A stretch of 64,000 nucleotides of DNA from Phenylobacterium montanum (lineage in GTDB: Bacteria; Pseudomonadota; Alphaproteobacteria; Caulobacterales; Caulobacteraceae), in contig NZ_CP073078.1 in assembly GCF_018135625.1 (NCBI RefSeq), positions 2,512,501 to 2,576,500 of the forward strand, written 5' to 3'. The notes under the pieces were generated by a model. It saw nothing but the letters and a program-made list of their open reading frames with translations. It did no database searches and was not told where the DNA came from. How positions within the stretch are numbered: the stretch's first letter is position 1; each line of letters opens with the position of its first letter. Made by a program: the position numbers and the translations under genes. Below are positions 46,485-52,127 of the stretch, in pieces.

Positions 46485-47540
46485 TCAGCCCGAAATCAGG
46501 TGCGGCGCAGCAAAACGGTTCAGGTCGGCCGGGTCGATCTGGGTGGCAAGATGGGCATGGAGTCCCTTCGCGCCATGCCGGGCGAGATCGGCGTTGAAAT
46601 CATCGAGCGCGGGCTCAAGGACGAGCACACCGATTCCAGCCTTTTGCGCGCGCAAGGCCAGACGATCCGTGGCCAGGAAGCCCGCCGAATCGGCGTCGCG
46701 GGCGATGTAGAGGCGCTTCAGGCCAGGCGACCACTCGACCAGCGCGAGATGGTTGGCTGACAAGGCCGCGGCCATGGGCATGCGGGGAAGGACTTGCCGC
46801 AGAGACAGGACGGTCTCGATTCCCTCGCCAACGGCCATAACCTCATGGGCCAGGCCGAAACGAACAGCGTTGCCAAGCAGACGGCCCATGGCCCGGCGCG
46901 GTGATGGCACGTCGGCCTTGTCCTTCGTGCGCCAGTCGAGCCAGGTCCGGTGAACACCGCAAATCTGGCCCTCCAGATCGGTCACCGCGGCGATCATCGC
47001 CGGCGTCACCCGCCGCTCGCCCGGGAGGGCCTCGCCAGGTTCCGCGACGCGCCAGCACCGTGGATGGAACCGCAGGCTCGCGCAGCCCCGCAGATCAAGT
47101 ATCCCGCGCCCTCGCAGATAGTCGGCCGCAAGCGTGCCTTGGATCGGCCCCGCCATGGCGAAGAGCCGTCGGCTCGCCGCCGAGCGATCCTTGGCCACGC
47201 TTGCGTACCCGCTCGCCTCTGTGATCGGCGTTGGTTCTGCTTCGCCAAGGAACCTTCGGGCTTCGGCCAGGACCTCGTGAAGGCTCGCCAGGGCGAGCCG
47301 CCGGCCGATCAGATCGAGCAGATCGCCATGCTCGCCGGTCGCCGCGTCGGTCCACTTGCCGGCCGGCGCGCCGTCATGCGTCTTGTGCAGCCGAACATAG
47401 AGGCTGCGCCCCGGTGAATTGGCGACATCGCCGACCACCCAATAGGCGCCTGCCCGCCGGCCCTTGGAGAGGTAACAGCGGCACACCGCCTCGGCGCGAT
47501 CCGCCAGACGCTTCGAAAGTTCGGCTGCGCTGTCAATCAT
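46485..47540 (-). CDS. Toprim-domain primase-like protein
   Basis: A 351-residue protein of the conjugative-element Toprim group (TraC/DUF7146 type). The N-terminal part resembles the inactive CHC2-like primase segment (CRCYLSKGRRAGAYWVVGDV, TGEHGDLLDLI), the middle DLRGCASLRFHPRCW and DLEGQICGVHRTWLDW are conserved blocks, and the Toprim domain carries MAVGEGIETVLSL (Glu) and LYIARDADSAG (D-x-D). It probably primes or processes transferred DNA. It lies downstream of the ParB-like gene on the same strand. Confidence 0.85.
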   Translation of the reverse strand: MIDSAAELSKRLADRAEAVCRCYLSKGRRAGAYWVVGDVANSPGRSLYVRLHKTHDGAPAGKWTDAATGEHGDLLDLIGRRLALASLHEVLAEARRFLGEAEPTPITEASGYASVAKDRSAASRRLFAMAGPIQGTLAADYLRGRGILDLRGCASLRFHPRCWRVAEPGEALPGERRVTPAMIAAVTDLEGQICGVHRTWLDWRTKDKADVPSPRRAMGRLLGNAVRFGLAHEVMAVGEGIETVLSLRQVLPRMPMAAALSANHLALVEWSPGLKRLYIARDADSAGFLATDRLALRAQKAGIGVLVLEPALDDFNADLARHGAKGLHAHLATQIDPADLNRFAAPHLISG

Positions 47541-47612: not shown

Positions 47613-49685
47613 CTATTCCGCCGCGATCGGGGGGGCTTCGATCGGGACCTCGGCATCATCACCGGCTGCTACGGCTTCGACCATGGCCGTTTCGCGGCCG
47701 TCGGCCGCCATCTCTTCGACCGGCACGGCCAGGGCCACCCGGACCCAGGCCGGCGCGCGGCCGGGGGTGCGAAGCGGCTCCGGCAGCCAGCCGAGGCCAG
47801 CGAGCAGGCCCTCGGCCGCCTCCGCCATATCTGTCTTCTTCAGCGGCTCGATCCGGCTGGCCGCCGCCGCGCCGCAGGCCTCGGCCACTGCGCCGAGGAT
47901 GCGGGCCTTGGAGACACGGCCCAGGAAGGAGGAGACGGTCGGCGCCCAGCCGGCGGCGACCATGTCGAGATCCAGGGCCTCGGCCAGGCGATCGGCATGG
48001 GCGAGCGCGCGGGGTTTGCGATTATAGACCTCGTAGACGGCGTTGACCGATTGGGCGACGCAGTGGGCGAACAGGGCCTGACGGCTGTCGCTGTCGAAGG
48101 CCTGGAGCGCGCCCCAGAGATGTTCGGCCTCGGTCGGCAGCGCCTGAACCCAGGCCTTGCGCCGCGTCTCGATGGCGACCGCGGCCGAACAGTCCGCAAG
48201 GTCCGGCGCCTGGGCGGAAAAGGTCGTGTGTTTGACGTCCAGTTCCAGGCAGCTGTCCTGGCCATAGCGGTAAAAAAGCTTGAGGCACAGGGCGTGCAGC
48301 GCCGCGAGGAAGGCGACGTCCGGGTTGGCGCCGAGGGCTTCGCGAAGCGCCACTGTGCGGTGAGCGGTCAGTTCGGTCAGTAGCCGGTCGGGGATCGGCC
48401 GGACGCCCTCATCCTCTTCGGCATCGACTGCGCTGGCCGGCGGCGCTACGCCTTGCTGATCGCCTTGGCCGTCCTCATCTTCGGCGGCGCCGCCGACCGC
48501 GGCCACCGGCGGCTCATCCTCGGGACGAACATAGCCGCGCTCGACCCGCAAGGCGCCAGAACCGTCGATGCTGACGAAGGCGCCGGCGATGGCGATGTCC
48601 GCGGGATCGAAGGTGGCGGGCCGTTCGTCGAACGCCGCCAGCGCCGCCTCCAGTTCGCCCAGCCGCTCATCGACTTCGGGCGGCAGGTCTTCGGTGTCCG
48701 CCCACTTCGCCTCCAGTTCGTCGAGTTCGGTCTGCAGGGCTGTCCGCGCGGCCTCTTCCTCTTCGGTGAGCGGCGGTACCTCGCCCCGCAAGGACCGCAG
48801 ACCGAAGGTGCGGTCGTAGGGCAGGTCTGATGCGACCTCGATCCACCGCCACCCCTCGGCGCGGACGGCGTTGGCCTCCCGGTCGAGCTTCTCGGCGACC
48901 AGGCGGTCCAGCAGGGCCGCATCCTGCAGCCAGCCGCCGTCATCACGTTCGAAGAGGTCGCGCAGGATGTCGCCGCCGGCCTCCAGATAGGCTTCAGGCC
49001 CTATGAACAGCACCCGCTTGTCGCCGAAGCGGACCGCGCCCTCCGTGAGGATGCGCCGGATCATATAGCCCGGCATGCCGTGGGATTGGCGAAGGCGGTC
49101 GAACACCTCCTCCTGGCGCTGATGGTCGGCGCTGACCGTGAAGGCCATCAGCTGCTCGAGGGTCATGCCGTCTTCGGCATAGACCTCCAAAAGCTTCGGC
49201 GAGACAGAGGCCAGGCGCAGACGTTGCTTGACCACGGCTGCGGTCGTGAAGAACGCCGCCGCAATGTCCTCCTCGGATTGGCCCTTTTCCCGCAGCGCCA
49301 GGAACGCCCTGAACTGATCCAGCGGATGCAGTGGCGCGCGCTGCACGTTCTCGGCCAGGCTGTCTTCCTCTGCGACGCCACCTTCCCGCACGACGCAAGG
49401 CACCGGCGCCGTCTTGGCCAGCCGCTTCTGCTTGACCAGCAGCTCCAGCGCCCGGTAGCGCCGACCACCCGCCGGCACCTCGAACTTGCCGGTCTCCTGG
49501 CCGTCGGCGCCGACGACGGCGCGCACGGTCAGGCTTTGCAGCAAGGTCCGCCGGGCGATGTCCTCGGCCAGCTCCTCGATGGAGACGCCGGCCTTGATGC
49601 GCCGCACGTTCGACTGGGACAGCACCAGCTTGTTGAACGGAATGTCCCGCGAGGCGGAGAGGACGATCTTGGAGGATTGGGTCAT
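47613..49685 (-). CDS. ParB/Spo0J-domain protein of conjugative elements
   Basis: A 690-residue protein. ParB/sulfiredoxin-like nuclease-CTPase core: IPFNKLVLSQSNVRRIKAG, IEELAEDIARRTLLQSLTVR, AGGRRYRALELLVKQ, EEDSLAENVQRAPLHPLDQF; then a KorB-type helix-turn-helix (SEEDIAAAFFTTAAVVKQRLRLASVSPKLLE). The acidic C-terminal 400 residues are typical of this long mobile-element subgroup. ATG 49685 follows a leader of family A. The role may be partition, gene regulation or DNA processing; no ParA is present. Confidence 0.88.
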   Translation of the reverse strand: MTQSSKIVLSASRDIPFNKLVLSQSNVRRIKAGVSIEELAEDIARRTLLQSLTVRAVVGADGQETGKFEVPAGGRRYRALELLVKQKRLAKTAPVPCVVREGGVAEEDSLAENVQRAPLHPLDQFRAFLALREKGQSEEDIAAAFFTTAAVVKQRLRLASVSPKLLEVYAEDGMTLEQLMAFTVSADHQRQEEVFDRLRQSHGMPGYMIRRILTEGAVRFGDKRVLFIGPEAYLEAGGDILRDLFERDDGGWLQDAALLDRLVAEKLDREANAVRAEGWRWIEVASDLPYDRTFGLRSLRGEVPPLTEEEEAARTALQTELDELEAKWADTEDLPPEVDERLGELEAALAAFDERPATFDPADIAIAGAFVSIDGSGALRVERGYVRPEDEPPVAAVGGAAEDEDGQGDQQGVAPPASAVDAEEDEGVRPIPDRLLTELTAHRTVALREALGANPDVAFLAALHALCLKLFYRYGQDSCLELDVKHTTFSAQAPDLADCSAAVAIETRRKAWVQALPTEAEHLWGALQAFDSDSRQALFAHCVAQSVNAVYEVYNRKPRALAHADRLAEALDLDMVAAGWAPTVSSFLGRVSKARILGAVAEACGAAAASRIEPLKKTDMAEAAEGLLAGLGWLPEPLRTPGRAPAWVRVALAVPVEEMAADGRETAMVEAVAAGDDAEVPIEAPPIAAE

Positions 49686-49700
49686 GGACTTCGAGCTCCA

Positions 49701-49770
49701 CGACGGGCGGCCGGGAGACCTCTCTCGGCCTTTCGAACCCGTCACAGAGCTCAGCCCACCCTTTCCTCTC
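49701..49770 (-). ncRNA. Structured 5' leader upstream of the ParB-like gene (leader family A)
   Basis: On the minus strand the element starts GAGAGGAAAGGGTGGGCTGA and ends GGCCGCCCGTCG. GGGTGG near the 5' end can pair with CCGCCC near the 3' end (one G-U), enclosing a hairpin built on CCG-A-GAGA-GAGG-TCTC-C-CGG. The DUF932 leader at 51052-51120 has the same ends and topology with compensatory differences, so an RNA structure is likely. Confidence 0.6.
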
Positions 49771-49833
49771 GAAGGCTGCAGCCGCAACGGACCTTGGCCG
49801 CGGGATCTGCTGGCGAGTCCCGCGGCGCCGGTG

Positions 49834-51036
49834 TCAGCGAACGCAGGCGAGAAGCTTGCCGGCCCGCCCTTCCAGCTCCAGACGATCATCCTGGTGTGGC
49901 TTGGTCCGAGCGAACGCGGTGATGCCCTGCACGAAATCGAACACAGACTCGGGCGGGCGTCCCTCCTCCTTCAGGACGGTGGCGATGACCTTGTCCGCTT
50001 CACCCTTGGAGAAGCCACGGGTGCGTAGGAAAGTCTTACGCTCCTCGTCCTTGCGCGCCACGATGCGGTCCCGGGCTGCGCGGATGCCTTCGACGAACGG
50101 CGTCGTCGAGGCGTTGGCGAAGCGCTCCAGCGCCGGCTCGGCCTCATGGGCGAAGCGGCTGGCGGCGAACTTGCTGTGGCGGATGGAGATCTCCTCAAAG
50201 CCCTCGGCGCCCCAGATGTTGCGGTTCATGCAGACCCCGCGCAGGTAGAAGGTCGCCATGCCGAGGGTCTTGGAACCGACCTCGGAGTTCCAGCAATAGA
50301 AGCCCCGGAAATAGAGATCCGGCTCGCCGTTCGAGAGGCGCCCAGCCTCGATCGGGTGGGTGTCGTCCACCAGGAACAGGAAGACGTCGCGGTCGCTGGC
50401 GTAGAGGGTGGTGTTGTCCTTGGTCACCTCGACGAACGGATTGTGGGTCATCGAAGACCAGTCGAGGACGCCCGGCACCTTCCAGCGGGTTTCACCGGCG
50501 CCATCGCCGGCGAGTTTCATCACCGCGCCGACCAGCTCATGGTCCCAAATGCGGCCATAGTCCGGCCCGGTGACGGCGCGAAGCTCGGTCCGCCCGTCCG
50601 CCATCTCCAGGGTCTTCACCAGCTCCGCCCGGTTGGAAAGCAGGCCGTGCTGGAGGTTGATGCCGGCCAGTGCTGCGGGCAGTTCGCGCAGATAGCCGGA
50701 CGGCGCGCCGGCCAGGCCACAAAGCTGGCCGAACGACCAATGGGTGGGCGCGAGGGGCTCAGGCGCGCCCGGTGCGATGAGGGTCAGCCCCTCGGGGTTG
50801 TCGCCGGCCGCTTCGACGCGGAGGCTCGTCGCTTCGATGGTGCGGACGGCCGCGCGTTCGGCGCGCGATCGCACCGCCTGATAGAGGTCGGTGAGCGAGA
50901 GATAGCGCTCATCGTCCGGCCGCGAAAACCATTCGGATGAGACCCGACCGATCCGCTGCCCGCGGCTGATATCGACCTTGAAGCCGCTCTGGACGGGCGC
51001 GCCTTCGCCCCACAGGGCCCTGTCGTCGTAGGTCAT
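49834..51036 (-). CDS. DUF932 protein
   Basis: A 400-residue DUF932 (DUF945-like) protein, common in plasmids, phages and ICEs: IEATSLRVEAAGDNPEGLTL, HWSFGQLCGLAGAPSGYLRELPA, ALRAVTGPDYGRIWDHELVG, LYASDRDVFLFLVDDTHPIE and FYCWNSEVGSKTLGMATFYLRGVCMNRNIWG. The molecular function is unknown; the family is thought to modulate DNA repair or replication during transfer. ATG 51036 is 15 bp after a family A leader. Confidence 0.87.
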   Translation of the reverse strand: MTYDDRALWGEGAPVQSGFKVDISRGQRIGRVSSEWFSRPDDERYLSLTDLYQAVRSRAERAAVRTIEATSLRVEAAGDNPEGLTLIAPGAPEPLAPTHWSFGQLCGLAGAPSGYLRELPAALAGINLQHGLLSNRAELVKTLEMADGRTELRAVTGPDYGRIWDHELVGAVMKLAGDGAGETRWKVPGVLDWSSMTHNPFVEVTKDNTTLYASDRDVFLFLVDDTHPIEAGRLSNGEPDLYFRGFYCWNSEVGSKTLGMATFYLRGVCMNRNIWGAEGFEEISIRHSKFAASRFAHEAEPALERFANASTTPFVEGIRAARDRIVARKDEERKTFLRTRGFSKGEADKVIATVLKEEGRPPESVFDFVQGITAFARTKPHQDDRLELEGRAGKLLACVR

Positions 51037-51051
51037 GGTTATACTCCCTAA

Positions 51052-51120
51052 TGACGGGCGGCCGAGAGCCTCTCTCTCGAGCCCAAACCTCGTCGCTGGG
51101 AACCCAGCCGCCCTCCTCTC
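51052..51120 (-). ncRNA. Structured 5' leader upstream of the DUF932 gene (leader family A)
   Basis: Minus strand: GAGAGGAGGGCGGCTGGG at the 5' end and CGGCCGCCCGTC at the 3' end. GGGCGGC pairs with GCCGCCC; inside are two hairpins, GCTGGG-TT-CCCAGC and CGAGAG-AGAGG-CTCTCG, which gives a three-way junction. It is related to the ParB-leader element at 49701-49770. The position right before the RBS (TAGGGAG) suggests control of translation. Confidence 0.62.
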
Positions 51121-51468
51121 GCCCCAGATCAGCGCCACCGCCTTGCCCGATCGCCCCAGGGCGTGCAGCAGCCCGGGGCGAAGCCCTGCAAAAGGAAAAT
51201 GAAGACCGCCAGGAGCCGCGCATGCGCGGCGGGAAGCGTCGACGGTCGGCCAGCGGCGGCCCAAAGGCCGCCCGAAGGGTCGAACCCGCAGGAGGAGCAA
51301 CGCGACGGGACCGAGCGCGACCGCTGGACGATCACCGTATAAGATCGGGCGTCATCGCCGAGCGTGGAATTGCGCCTGTTGTTTGAGGCGCGCGCACCTT
51401 TGCGAAGGCCCCTTCATAATGTAAACATCTGTTTGCGTAAACATCATTTGGCGCAAAGGGATGTTTAC
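51121..51468. other. Intergenic region with palindrome and hipB operator
   Basis: No gene is supported here. A perfect 16-bp palindrome, GCCGCGCATGCGCGGC, lies at 51215-51230, and a hairpin built on GGGCGAAGCCC is nearby (51177-51187 region). The right part (51420-51468) contains the GTAAACATC repeats described separately. Confidence 0.55.
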
Positions 51469-51470
51469 AT
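51420..51470. promoter_or_regulatory. Probable operator of the hipB-like gene (three GTAAACATC copies)
   Basis: GTAAACATC occurs at 51421-51429 and 51437-51445 as direct copies and as the inverted GATGTTTAC at 51460-51468, immediately before and touching the hipB ATG (51469). The outer copies form a long palindrome ATGTAAACATC/GATGTTTACAT. This arrangement fits autoregulation by the XRE-type antitoxin. Confidence 0.7.
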
Positions 51471-51801
51471 GCCAACGCCTCATCATCCGCCTCTCGCGGT
51501 CCGCCGCGCGCTGCGCAAGCTTGGCGGGGACATCAAGGACGCCCGCAAACGGCGGGGTCTTACCGCTGAGATCGTCGCCGAACGAGCCTTCACCACGCGC
51601 CCCACGCTGCAGAAGATCGAGGCGGGCGAAGAAGGGGTTGCGATCGGCATCTATGCTTCCGTCCTCAATGCGCTCGGCCTTCTCGACCATCTGGGCCAGA
51701 TCGCCGATCCGTCGCTCGACCTGGTCGGTCAGCAGCTGGCCGCCGGCGCATTGCCGATCCGCGTCCGGCGCCGATCGCTCCGGCCAGGCTCCAAGTCATG
51801 A
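51469..51801 (+). CDS. HipB-like XRE antitoxin
   Basis: A 110-residue helix-turn-helix protein: LAVRRALRKLGGDIKDARKRRGLTAEIVAERAFTTRPTLQKIEAGEEGVAIGIYASVLNALGL (XRE fold with the typical TLQKIEAG recognition segment). ATG 51469 is used. The stop overlaps the ATG of the hipA fragment (ATGA), the usual hipBA layout. Three GTAAACATC repeats precede it. Because the toxin gene is truncated, the regulator may persist as an orphan. Confidence 0.85.
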   Translation: MPTPHHPPLAVRRALRKLGGDIKDARKRRGLTAEIVAERAFTTRPTLQKIEAGEEGVAIGIYASVLNALGLLDHLGQIADPSLDLVGQQLAAGALPIRVRRRSLRPGSKS

Positions 51802-52127
51802 CGGACATCGAAGTTCACCTCGATCGCCGCGGTGTTCCGATGCGCGTCGGCACGCTTCGTCGCACGCCTCGCCGGGGCGGCGAGACGGTCGTGTTCGAGT
51901 ATCACCCCGATGGGCTGGCCGATCCTGACGGTTTCTCGCTCGAGCCCGCCCTGGCGATTGGCCCGGGCCCATTTGTTCCGGCCGCAGGACAGAGCTTCTT
52001 CGGCTCGATCGGCGACTCGGCTCCAGACACATGGGGTCGCCGCGTCATGCAGCGGGCTGAGCGCCGCAGGGCGGAGATCGAGGGCCGGCCGATCCGGACG
52101 CTCAGCGGCAGGCCTGGGGGCCCTTGA
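51798..52127 (+). pseudogene. Truncated hipA-like toxin gene (N-terminal part only)
   Basis: A 109-codon frame with the HipA N-terminal (Couple_hipA) pattern: VHLDRRGVPMRVGTLRR, VVFEYHPDGLADPDGFSLEP and FVPAAGQSFFGSIGDSAPDTWGRRVMQRAER. Complete HipA kinases have about 400-450 residues; after RTLSGRPGGP the frame ends, and the kinase core is absent. The region behind it (52128-52441) shows no continuation in another frame that I can find, so a deletion rather than a single frameshift is likely. No kinase activity is expected. Confidence 0.8.

Follow-up and report, generated by a model that had tools for sequence, protein, structure and literature searches.

The window analysed here is a stretch of 64,000 nucleotides from Phenylobacterium montanum, in which a minus-strand module comprises a DUF932 gene, a ParB-like gene and, next in the module, a DUF7146/Toprim gene (Table 1). 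The PF02195 match of the ParB-like protein lies just below the cut-off of 26.3, the TIGR00180 and PRTRC ParB matches are also below cut-off, and a structure search with this protein returned ParB/Spo0J structures. The DUF932 protein of the window has no Pfam match at 0.001, and many of its plasmid relatives are annotated 'DUF932 domain-containing protein'. The neighbours of the module include an RlxS-type relaxase (below the cut-off of its model), a TraF-like peptidase, a DUF2840 protein, an RPA-type replication initiator, a SLOG-family protein and a phage-type integrase in addition to the DUF7146/Toprim gene, and the module, judged from sequence, is resident in an integrative element. Repeated GTAAACAT-like words, possibly an operator, were observed at 51415-51475, close to where a divergent HTH gene begins; this gene is followed by a HipA N-terminal match (51798-52127) that suggests a broken hipBA-like pair. 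A glycine riboswitch aptamer (RF00504, 59544-59634, 67.5 bits) is situated across the integrase from the features described below.

Two segments that begin with GAGAGG (at 51120 and 49770) and contain GGCCGCCCGTC exactly (at 51053-51063 and 49702-49712), all on the minus strand, end at the ATG codons of the DUF932 gene (51036, 400 aa) and the ParB-like gene (49685, 690 aa), respectively. Direct reading of the sequence thereby confirms the preliminary description in so far as it placed here two segments with both ends in common, each directly 5' of a start codon; the interval that it gave, 49701-51120, does contain both, but as two separate leaders with the DUF932 gene in between. Across the 5.65-Mb genome, these two leaders are the only places with the pattern GAGAGGN{30,58}GGCCGCCCGTC, and its backwards version does not occur, while GGCCGCCCGTC with at most one mismatch is not found above chance (six occurrences against 9.66 expected). 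Both copies diverge from the family described below, in that the second unit of the 5' purine tandem is degenerate in both and the apical loop of the parB leader is AGGU. Single-sequence folding of the window leaders gives weak signals (z of -1.77, -0.53, -2.31 and -1.19 for four cuts). The GGAG of the parB-like leader has a predicted unpaired probability of 0.003, and the Shine-Dalgarno sequence of the DUF932 leader one of 0.59 with 30 nt of coding sequence added. The window copies by themselves are a thin case, and the proof rests on their relatives.

Table 1. Positions of the genes, the leaders and the leader elements; coordinates are those of the window unless a locus or plasmid is named.
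Feature	Position	Strand	Evidence and remarks
ParB-like gene, 690 aa	47613..49685	minus	behind first leader; ParB_N PF02195, E 1.1e-05, 25.8 bits
DUF932 gene, 400 aa	49834..51036	minus	behind second leader; phrog_1362 (unknown function)
DUF7146/Toprim gene, next in module	46485..47540	minus	PF23639, PF13362; without an R1 leader of its own
Leader of parB-like gene (core, GAGAGG to base preceding ATG)	49686..49770	minus	R1 match 49683-49781, 55.6 bits, E 2.7e-11; sequence
5' purine motif GAGAGG, parB-like leader	49765..49770	minus	direct reading; second tandem unit degenerate (AAAGGG)
P1 5' arm CTCTGTGACGGG, parB-like leader	49738..49749	minus	fold and R1 match
P2 hairpin, parB-like leader	49709..49730	minus	arms 49730-49722 / 49717-49709; fold and R1 match
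Apical loop AGGU of P2, parB-like leader	49721-49718	minus	shorter than the usual AGAGK
P1 3' arm CCCGTCGTGGAG, parB-like leader	49696..49707	minus	includes Shine-Dalgarno GGAG (49699-49696); fold and R1 match
Leader of DUF932 gene (core, GAGAGG to base preceding ATG)	51037..51120	minus	R1 match 51034-51131, 51.7 bits, E 2.3e-10
5' purine motif GAGAGG, DUF932 leader	51115..51120	minus	second tandem unit lost (3-nt gap against the model)
P1 5' arm TTCCCAGCGACGAGG, DUF932 leader	51088..51102	minus	fold; R1 model alignment
P2 hairpin, DUF932 leader	51060..51083	minus	apical loop AGAGG 51073-51069; fold and R1 match
P1 3' arm GCCCGTCATTAGGGAG, DUF932 leader	51044..51059	minus	Shine-Dalgarno AGGGAG 51049-51044 inside; fold
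Leader modules of plasmid pMC4	118-119 kb, 212-217 kb, 364-369 kb
Second leader type	L064:5304-5395, L064:10841-10931, L067:5301-5393, L044:11400-11490, L072, L123:2254-2361

Loci with close DUF932 relatives were fetched (80, the best 80 of at least 586 confirmed, plus 27 from viral contigs), and a loose motif filter was passed by 90 of 174 stretches upstream of DUF932 and ParB-like homologues. Of 61 non-redundant leaders, 57 made up the seed alignment (A2) from which the covariance model R1 was built, both window copies being excluded on purpose. Two relatives, L045 (parB) and L047, had been removed from A2 by hand because of an irregular Shine-Dalgarno sequence and a deletion, and were later recovered by R1 at 67.7 and 71.3 bits. 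R1 detects both window copies (Table 1); the next best match within the window reaches only 8.6 bits, and a search of the whole genome gave no third copy at E ≤ 1. Among sampled genomes, R1 was positive in 11/100 relatives, in 27/385 from the class of the window and in 34/398 at the level of the phylum, all 34 within that class (the share of the 398 outside the class is not given); two orders yielded 30/82 and 13/96. Going by record titles, leader-bearing loci with a named host come from Alphaproteobacteria. The first loci, the genome searches and re-searched DNA around further matches together provided 295 distinct leaders, a count taken after removal of 15 weak R1 matches (E 0.0057 to 0.89); six order-level matches, resolved separately and outside the 295, precede four ParB-like and two ArdC genes.

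The consensus fold consists of a 12-bp stem (P1), the 3' arm of which, CCCGUCRYGGAG, includes the Shine-Dalgarno sequence GGAG, and of a nested 9-bp hairpin (P2) with a five-base loop, AGAGK. In the 57 seed leaders 89.2% of the cells are paired and both partners vary in 15 of the 21 pairs. On each of five measures the observed covariation was reached by 0/500 shuffles, which ignore relatedness, and in controls with a slid partner pairing fell to 37-51%. The 99 distinct rows taken later from other genomes, which were absent from model building but were fitted to R1 for alignment, are 92.2% paired with both-side changes in 17 of the 21 pairs. When four relatives were folded singly, P1 and P2 were recovered with three or four of the four GGAG bases paired (z of -3.81, -2.53, -3.76 and -3.55). 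Absence of covariation among homologues and confinement of the similarity to a short DNA-binding site had been set beforehand as observations against an RNA family; the homologues do covary, and the similarity extends beyond any such site over a leader of about 85 nt with covarying stems. In the 18 inner pairs G-U combinations outnumber A-C combinations by about 10:1 (163:17, 256:24 and 241:23 in alignments A2, A5 and A6), and therefore it is the sense strand that folds, as an RNA would. This asymmetry speaks against a site in duplex DNA and against a hairpin formed by a transferred strand of antisense polarity. That the leader is a duplex operator or recombination repeat copied ahead of several genes is scarcely credible: its sharp 5' boundary and the several similar copies per element would suit such a repeat, but the covariation, the G-U preference and a position fixed to the start codon, with GGAG 7-9 nt 5' of it in 265/273 leaders (the 273 of 295 that passed the filter), speak against it.

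The predicted accessibility of the ribosome-binding site agrees with its place in P1. Over 70 of 131 non-redundant leaders, the unpaired probability of GGAG is predicted to be 0.224 in the native context and 0.454 with a shuffled upstream sequence, and it is lower in 60 of the 70; in 8/70 the site is predicted to be more than 50% unpaired. Besides the stems, the leaders share AGAG motifs. A tandem, AGAGK-N-AGAGK, marks a sharp 5' edge at which conservation stops, mostly 80-84 nt ahead of the start codon (67/85). Upstream of it, over -60 to -1, conservation never rises above 0.45 bits in 106 non-redundant ParB leaders, and it does so, at 0.5-0.6 bits, at one position in 54 DUF932 leaders and at four in 37 ArdC leaders. 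This profile was anchored on the tandem itself and the bits of the AGAG letters are partly so by construction; the seed alignment, which has no such anchor, shows at least 90% conservation of GAG and AGAG in the tandem. The apical loop is AGAGG or AGAGU in 43/57, 76/99 and 57/91 leaders, exact AGAGNNAGAG is present in 44/57, 74/99 and 60/91, and the last letter of the AGAG motifs varies between G and U in the tandem and in the loop.

Neither an enrichment of sigma-70-like promoters (score 6.32, against 6.50 in shuffles) nor a rise in A+T was found upstream of the tandem in 208 non-redundant leaders. At four loci from Acidocella and similar MAGs (L023, L037, L074 and L081) a terminator-like hairpin with a T run was seen by eye to end within about 20 nt of the parB-leader tandem, and a hairpin abutting the tandem in this way leaves almost no room for a promoter. 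A small hairpin, CCCCTTCTGCGGGG-n-CCCCGCAACGCCCC, recurs just 5' of the leader in several lineages, at DUF932 as well as ArdC genes (L009, L017, L098, L112, L130 and L141). Three further elements were considered and rejected. A short upstream ORF starting from the conserved RUG of P1 would have frames scattered with respect to the gene start (44/42/58 of 144 ParB leaders), only about 106/276 stop after three codons and GCG replaces RUG in 31/276. A hairpin P0 with the tandem in its loop is supported in ParB leaders only (0/60 permutations as good, compared with 28/60 for DUF932 and 13/60 for ArdC). Pairing of the tandem with the 3' arm of P2, as in a switch, is not supported, since 30, 13 and 5 of 60 permutations are as good.

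The genes behind the 295 leaders fall largely into three families: 153 are ParB-like, 68 DUF932 and 48 ArdC, together 269/295, with 23 others and three leaders without a usable ORF. A Pfam scan confirmed ArdC in both examples tested (ArdcN PF08401 and MPTase-PolyVal PF18818) and identified one AlpA and one RadC among the other targets; two small leader-preceded proteins that were scanned had no Pfam match, and two of the 'other' targets resemble, by eye, a broken ParB (L273) and a broken ArdC (L280) gene. The description of the leaders as lying before parB and DUF932 genes thus named two of the main targets, but the family is wider and ArdC is a third. Of 102 leader-bearing genomes, at least 89 have a ParB leader (91 with two cases resolved later), 42 an ArdC leader and 32 a DUF932 leader. 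ArdC and DUF932 leaders co-occur in only 3/102 genomes, and a search of the 80 loci centred on DUF932 (about 6 kb on each side; 54 carry leaders) and of 12 kb of the window gave no ArdC-like ORF. As these two types are rarely found together, the usual module is a leader with either ArdC or DUF932 followed by a leader with ParB, often then by DUF7146/Toprim. By neighbour counts that rest on crude ORF calling, a DUF7146/Toprim gene is nearby in 29/54 leader loci versus 1/27 others, a SLOG/YAcAr-type gene in 25/54 versus 2/27 and a member of the ParB-like family in 51/54 versus 17/27.

Used as a DNA query, one leader matched 81 plasmid records, 27 of which are predicted to be conjugative and six mobilizable. 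The conjugative Sphingopyxis indica plasmid pMC4 (NZ_CP076395.1) carries eight leaders in three modules (Table 1). Seven end at annotated starts, of an ArdC-like protein (one), ParB (three) and proteins of 397, 305 and 182 aa; the eighth is weak and lies about 57 bp 5' of a DUF2958 gene. The leader-preceded proteins of 182 and 305 aa are candidate establishment or anti-defence genes.

Leaders of other sequence were also observed. Loci without the present leader often have other GC-rich leaders, to all appearance unrelated to it, which the DUF932 gene and the ParB-like gene of a locus have in common, with 76-97% identity over 84-126 nt at seven of 14 loci tested (L022, L040, L049, L061, L070, L076 and L080). 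It may be generally the case that these two genes have a common leader, provided by several independent sequence families. A second leader type (Table 1) precedes ArdB antirestriction and strawberry-notch genes; it keeps the AGAG tandem with a different body, which by eye resembles an H-type pseudoknot between the loop GGAGAGCG and a downstream CGCTCTC beside the Shine-Dalgarno sequence. Some other strawberry-notch genes are without it.

Searches against Rfam 15 (4227 families) returned no family for these leaders. In the window only the glycine riboswitch reached the gathering threshold, in ten leader-bearing and comparison loci only one tRNA did, and searches with permissive settings, over 1.8 kb of the window and five leader-bearing loci, gave sub-threshold matches only; no Rfam ROSE match, the rhizobial type of RNA thermometer, was found in the window or the leader loci searched. 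In the open-licence PMC literature, judged by titles and abstracts, no description of the family was found. The leaders are therefore regarded as an RNA family without an Rfam 15 match, probably an unrecognised RNA switch of establishment genes. Leaders that sequester the Shine-Dalgarno sequence are familiar from riboswitches, ribosomal-protein leaders, the MS2 replicase operator and T4 gene 32, and the present family resembles them in a hairpin that hides the ribosome-binding site and in which a ligand or protein would decide; it differs from them in its fold, in a motif (AGAG) that appears three times, in the lack of an Rfam match and in serving several gene families of mobile elements. Leaders regulated by CsrA/RsmA carry GGA in the apical loop. 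This type was considered and rejected: the loop here is usually AGAGG or AGAGU (counts above), and PF02599 is absent from the genome of the window and present in 3/14 control genomes.

Two systems of conjugative elements are closer in their genes. EGeRS1 and EGeRS2 are, as described for the Bacillus plasmids pLS20/p576, establishment gene regulatory sequences that are conserved directly before several establishment genes, including ardC, and beside the ribosome-binding site, so that they define a regulon (PMC8708921), as the leaders would. EGeRS1 is described there as predicted to be highly structured, and the tested copy is without a constitutive promoter; it spans 420-750 bp with many inverted repeats, whereas the leader has about 85 nt and one nested stem. 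EGeRS2 contains a strong promoter and is served by an element-encoded DNA-binding repressor; in the leader loci the promoter search, which covered the sigma-70 type, and the A+T profile showed no enrichment or rise. The leader is further set apart from EGeRS, by the description of the latter, in being alphaproteobacterial and in having a covariation-supported structure that includes the Shine-Dalgarno sequence. Frpo/ssi elements are reported to be hairpins before leading-region and anti-defence genes that serve early expression in the recipient, with -35 and -10 elements in the stem (PMC11541004). The leader likewise is a hairpin ahead of genes of leading-region/anti-defence type, but Frpo acts as DNA, whereas in the leader the sense strand folds, G-U is preferred, there are 21 pairs and no promoter motif is apparent. 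No sign of homology of the leader with EGeRS, compared by description alone, or with Frpo was found.

We favour, with a probability of roughly 0.78, the reading that these 85 or so nucleotides work in cis as a leader RNA of the sense strand, by which translation would be controlled for establishment-type genes of conjugative plasmids and integrative elements in Alphaproteobacteria. A translational leader is preferred because the family is short, alphaproteobacterial and acts at the RNA level with the ribosome-binding site in its stem, unlike EGeRS and Frpo. The parts of this reading differ in strength. The leader is almost certainly a structured cis-regulatory RNA; the proposal of a leader RNA family is upheld by the both-side changes in the seed and in the later rows, by the Shine-Dalgarno sequence in the stem and by a constant place before ParB-like, DUF932 and ArdC genes. 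It very probably acts on translation through the Shine-Dalgarno sequence, the AGAG motifs are likely to be a recognition site for a protein or an RNA, and for a switching of the leader tied to transfer or establishment the odds appear even. With P1 closed, the Shine-Dalgarno sequence would be out of the reach of ribosomes and the gene silent or weakly expressed; a putative factor acting in trans, most likely a protein encoded by element or host, would read the AGAG motifs and either open or lock P1; and the leader-bearing genes would then switch together, probably around transfer. Binding by an element-encoded protein or RNA and joint regulation of both genes at transfer, as suggested in the preliminary description, are likewise conjecture. 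Leaders within one element are hardly more alike than those of different elements (0.648 and 0.639; 82/2000 permutations as high, 32 loci), so that any co-evolution with a factor peculiar to the element would be weak at best.

As to how such a leader might be operated, autogenous repression and cross-repression by a nucleic-acid-binding protein have precedents in T4 gp32 and the MS2 coat protein. A corresponding, rather unlikely, account would have ArdC, DUF932 or the ParB-like protein, as a nucleic-acid binder encoded in the module, bind AGAG and lock P1, such that the genes are repressed in the donor and a recipient without the protein undergoes a burst of translation until the protein accumulates. 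According to work on ArdC, this protein binds single-stranded DNA and is required in the recipient and not in the donor (PMC7213743), a recipient-only requirement that makes ArdC an establishment gene by experiment, and establishment genes are thought, in the description of EGeRS, to need a rapid and transient burst (PMC8708921). The structure model of the DUF932 protein (pLDDT 87.4) resembles over residues 61-159 the OB folds that bind single-stranded DNA, weakly (RPA, Z 5.8, 83 residues, rmsd 2.9; Cdc13, RecO and RadD score lower), although the RPA match itself is below the trustworthy level and Foldseek gave no match to the model at E ≤ 0.001. ParB leaders are found in most leader-bearing genomes (counts above), yet none of the three families has leaders everywhere; a leaderless gene could still act. 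Since the DUF932 loci and the window stretch searched have no ArdC-like ORF, a general role for ArdC as the factor is improbable unless its gene lies elsewhere. Support for repression by a product of the module is circumstantial.

Control by the ribosome with no dedicated factor, in which the Shine-Dalgarno hairpin would be closed, the AGAG motifs next to it would be ribosome standby sites or enhancers, and translation would be low and protected, is a further and fairly improbable account. GAGG is able to pair with the anti-Shine-Dalgarno sequence, the motifs consist largely of purines and are free of pairing in the consensus, and the gene co-occurrence search for a trans-acting factor found no enriched family that is an obvious dedicated RNA binder. 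Against this account, ribosome pairing would not favour the G/U variation of the last letter of the motif, and the conservation of the tandem in the unanchored seed is stricter than a standby site should need. It is very improbable that the leader is a single-stranded DNA promoter of the Frpo/ssi type, with a hairpin in the incoming strand that recruits RNA polymerase: the genes are suitable, a hairpin lies ahead of each and no ordinary promoter is seen upstream, but folding is a property of the sense strand, whereas a template T-strand would be antisense, 21 pairs are too few for a -35 plus a -10 element, the sigma-70-like scores do not exceed those of shuffles and the Shine-Dalgarno sequence is located within the stem.

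Within the translational-leader reading, a more specific scheme of post-transcriptional zygotic induction may be entertained, although we hold it to be distinctly doubtful. One copied RNA hairpin and an element-encoded AGAG-binding protein would silence a whole establishment regulon translationally, comprising ArdC, ParB-like and DUF932 proteins and sometimes RadC, AlpA and others, and a cell without the AGAG-binding protein, or titration of that protein by incoming single-stranded DNA, would bring about immediate and transient release. ArdC-N domains and a different, DdrB-like ParB domain occur in polyvalent proteins of phages and conjugative elements, some of which are thought to travel with the DNA, as stated in work on these proteins (PMC5512222).

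In the portions of the literature drawn on here, the quick and brief switching on of antirestriction and establishment genes has so far been ascribed to single-stranded DNA promoters or to a DNA-binding repressor. The leader family points to an RNA-level route distinct from both. It may also be used as a marker for establishment genes of unknown function, and a ready one, because any gene behind a leader becomes a candidate.
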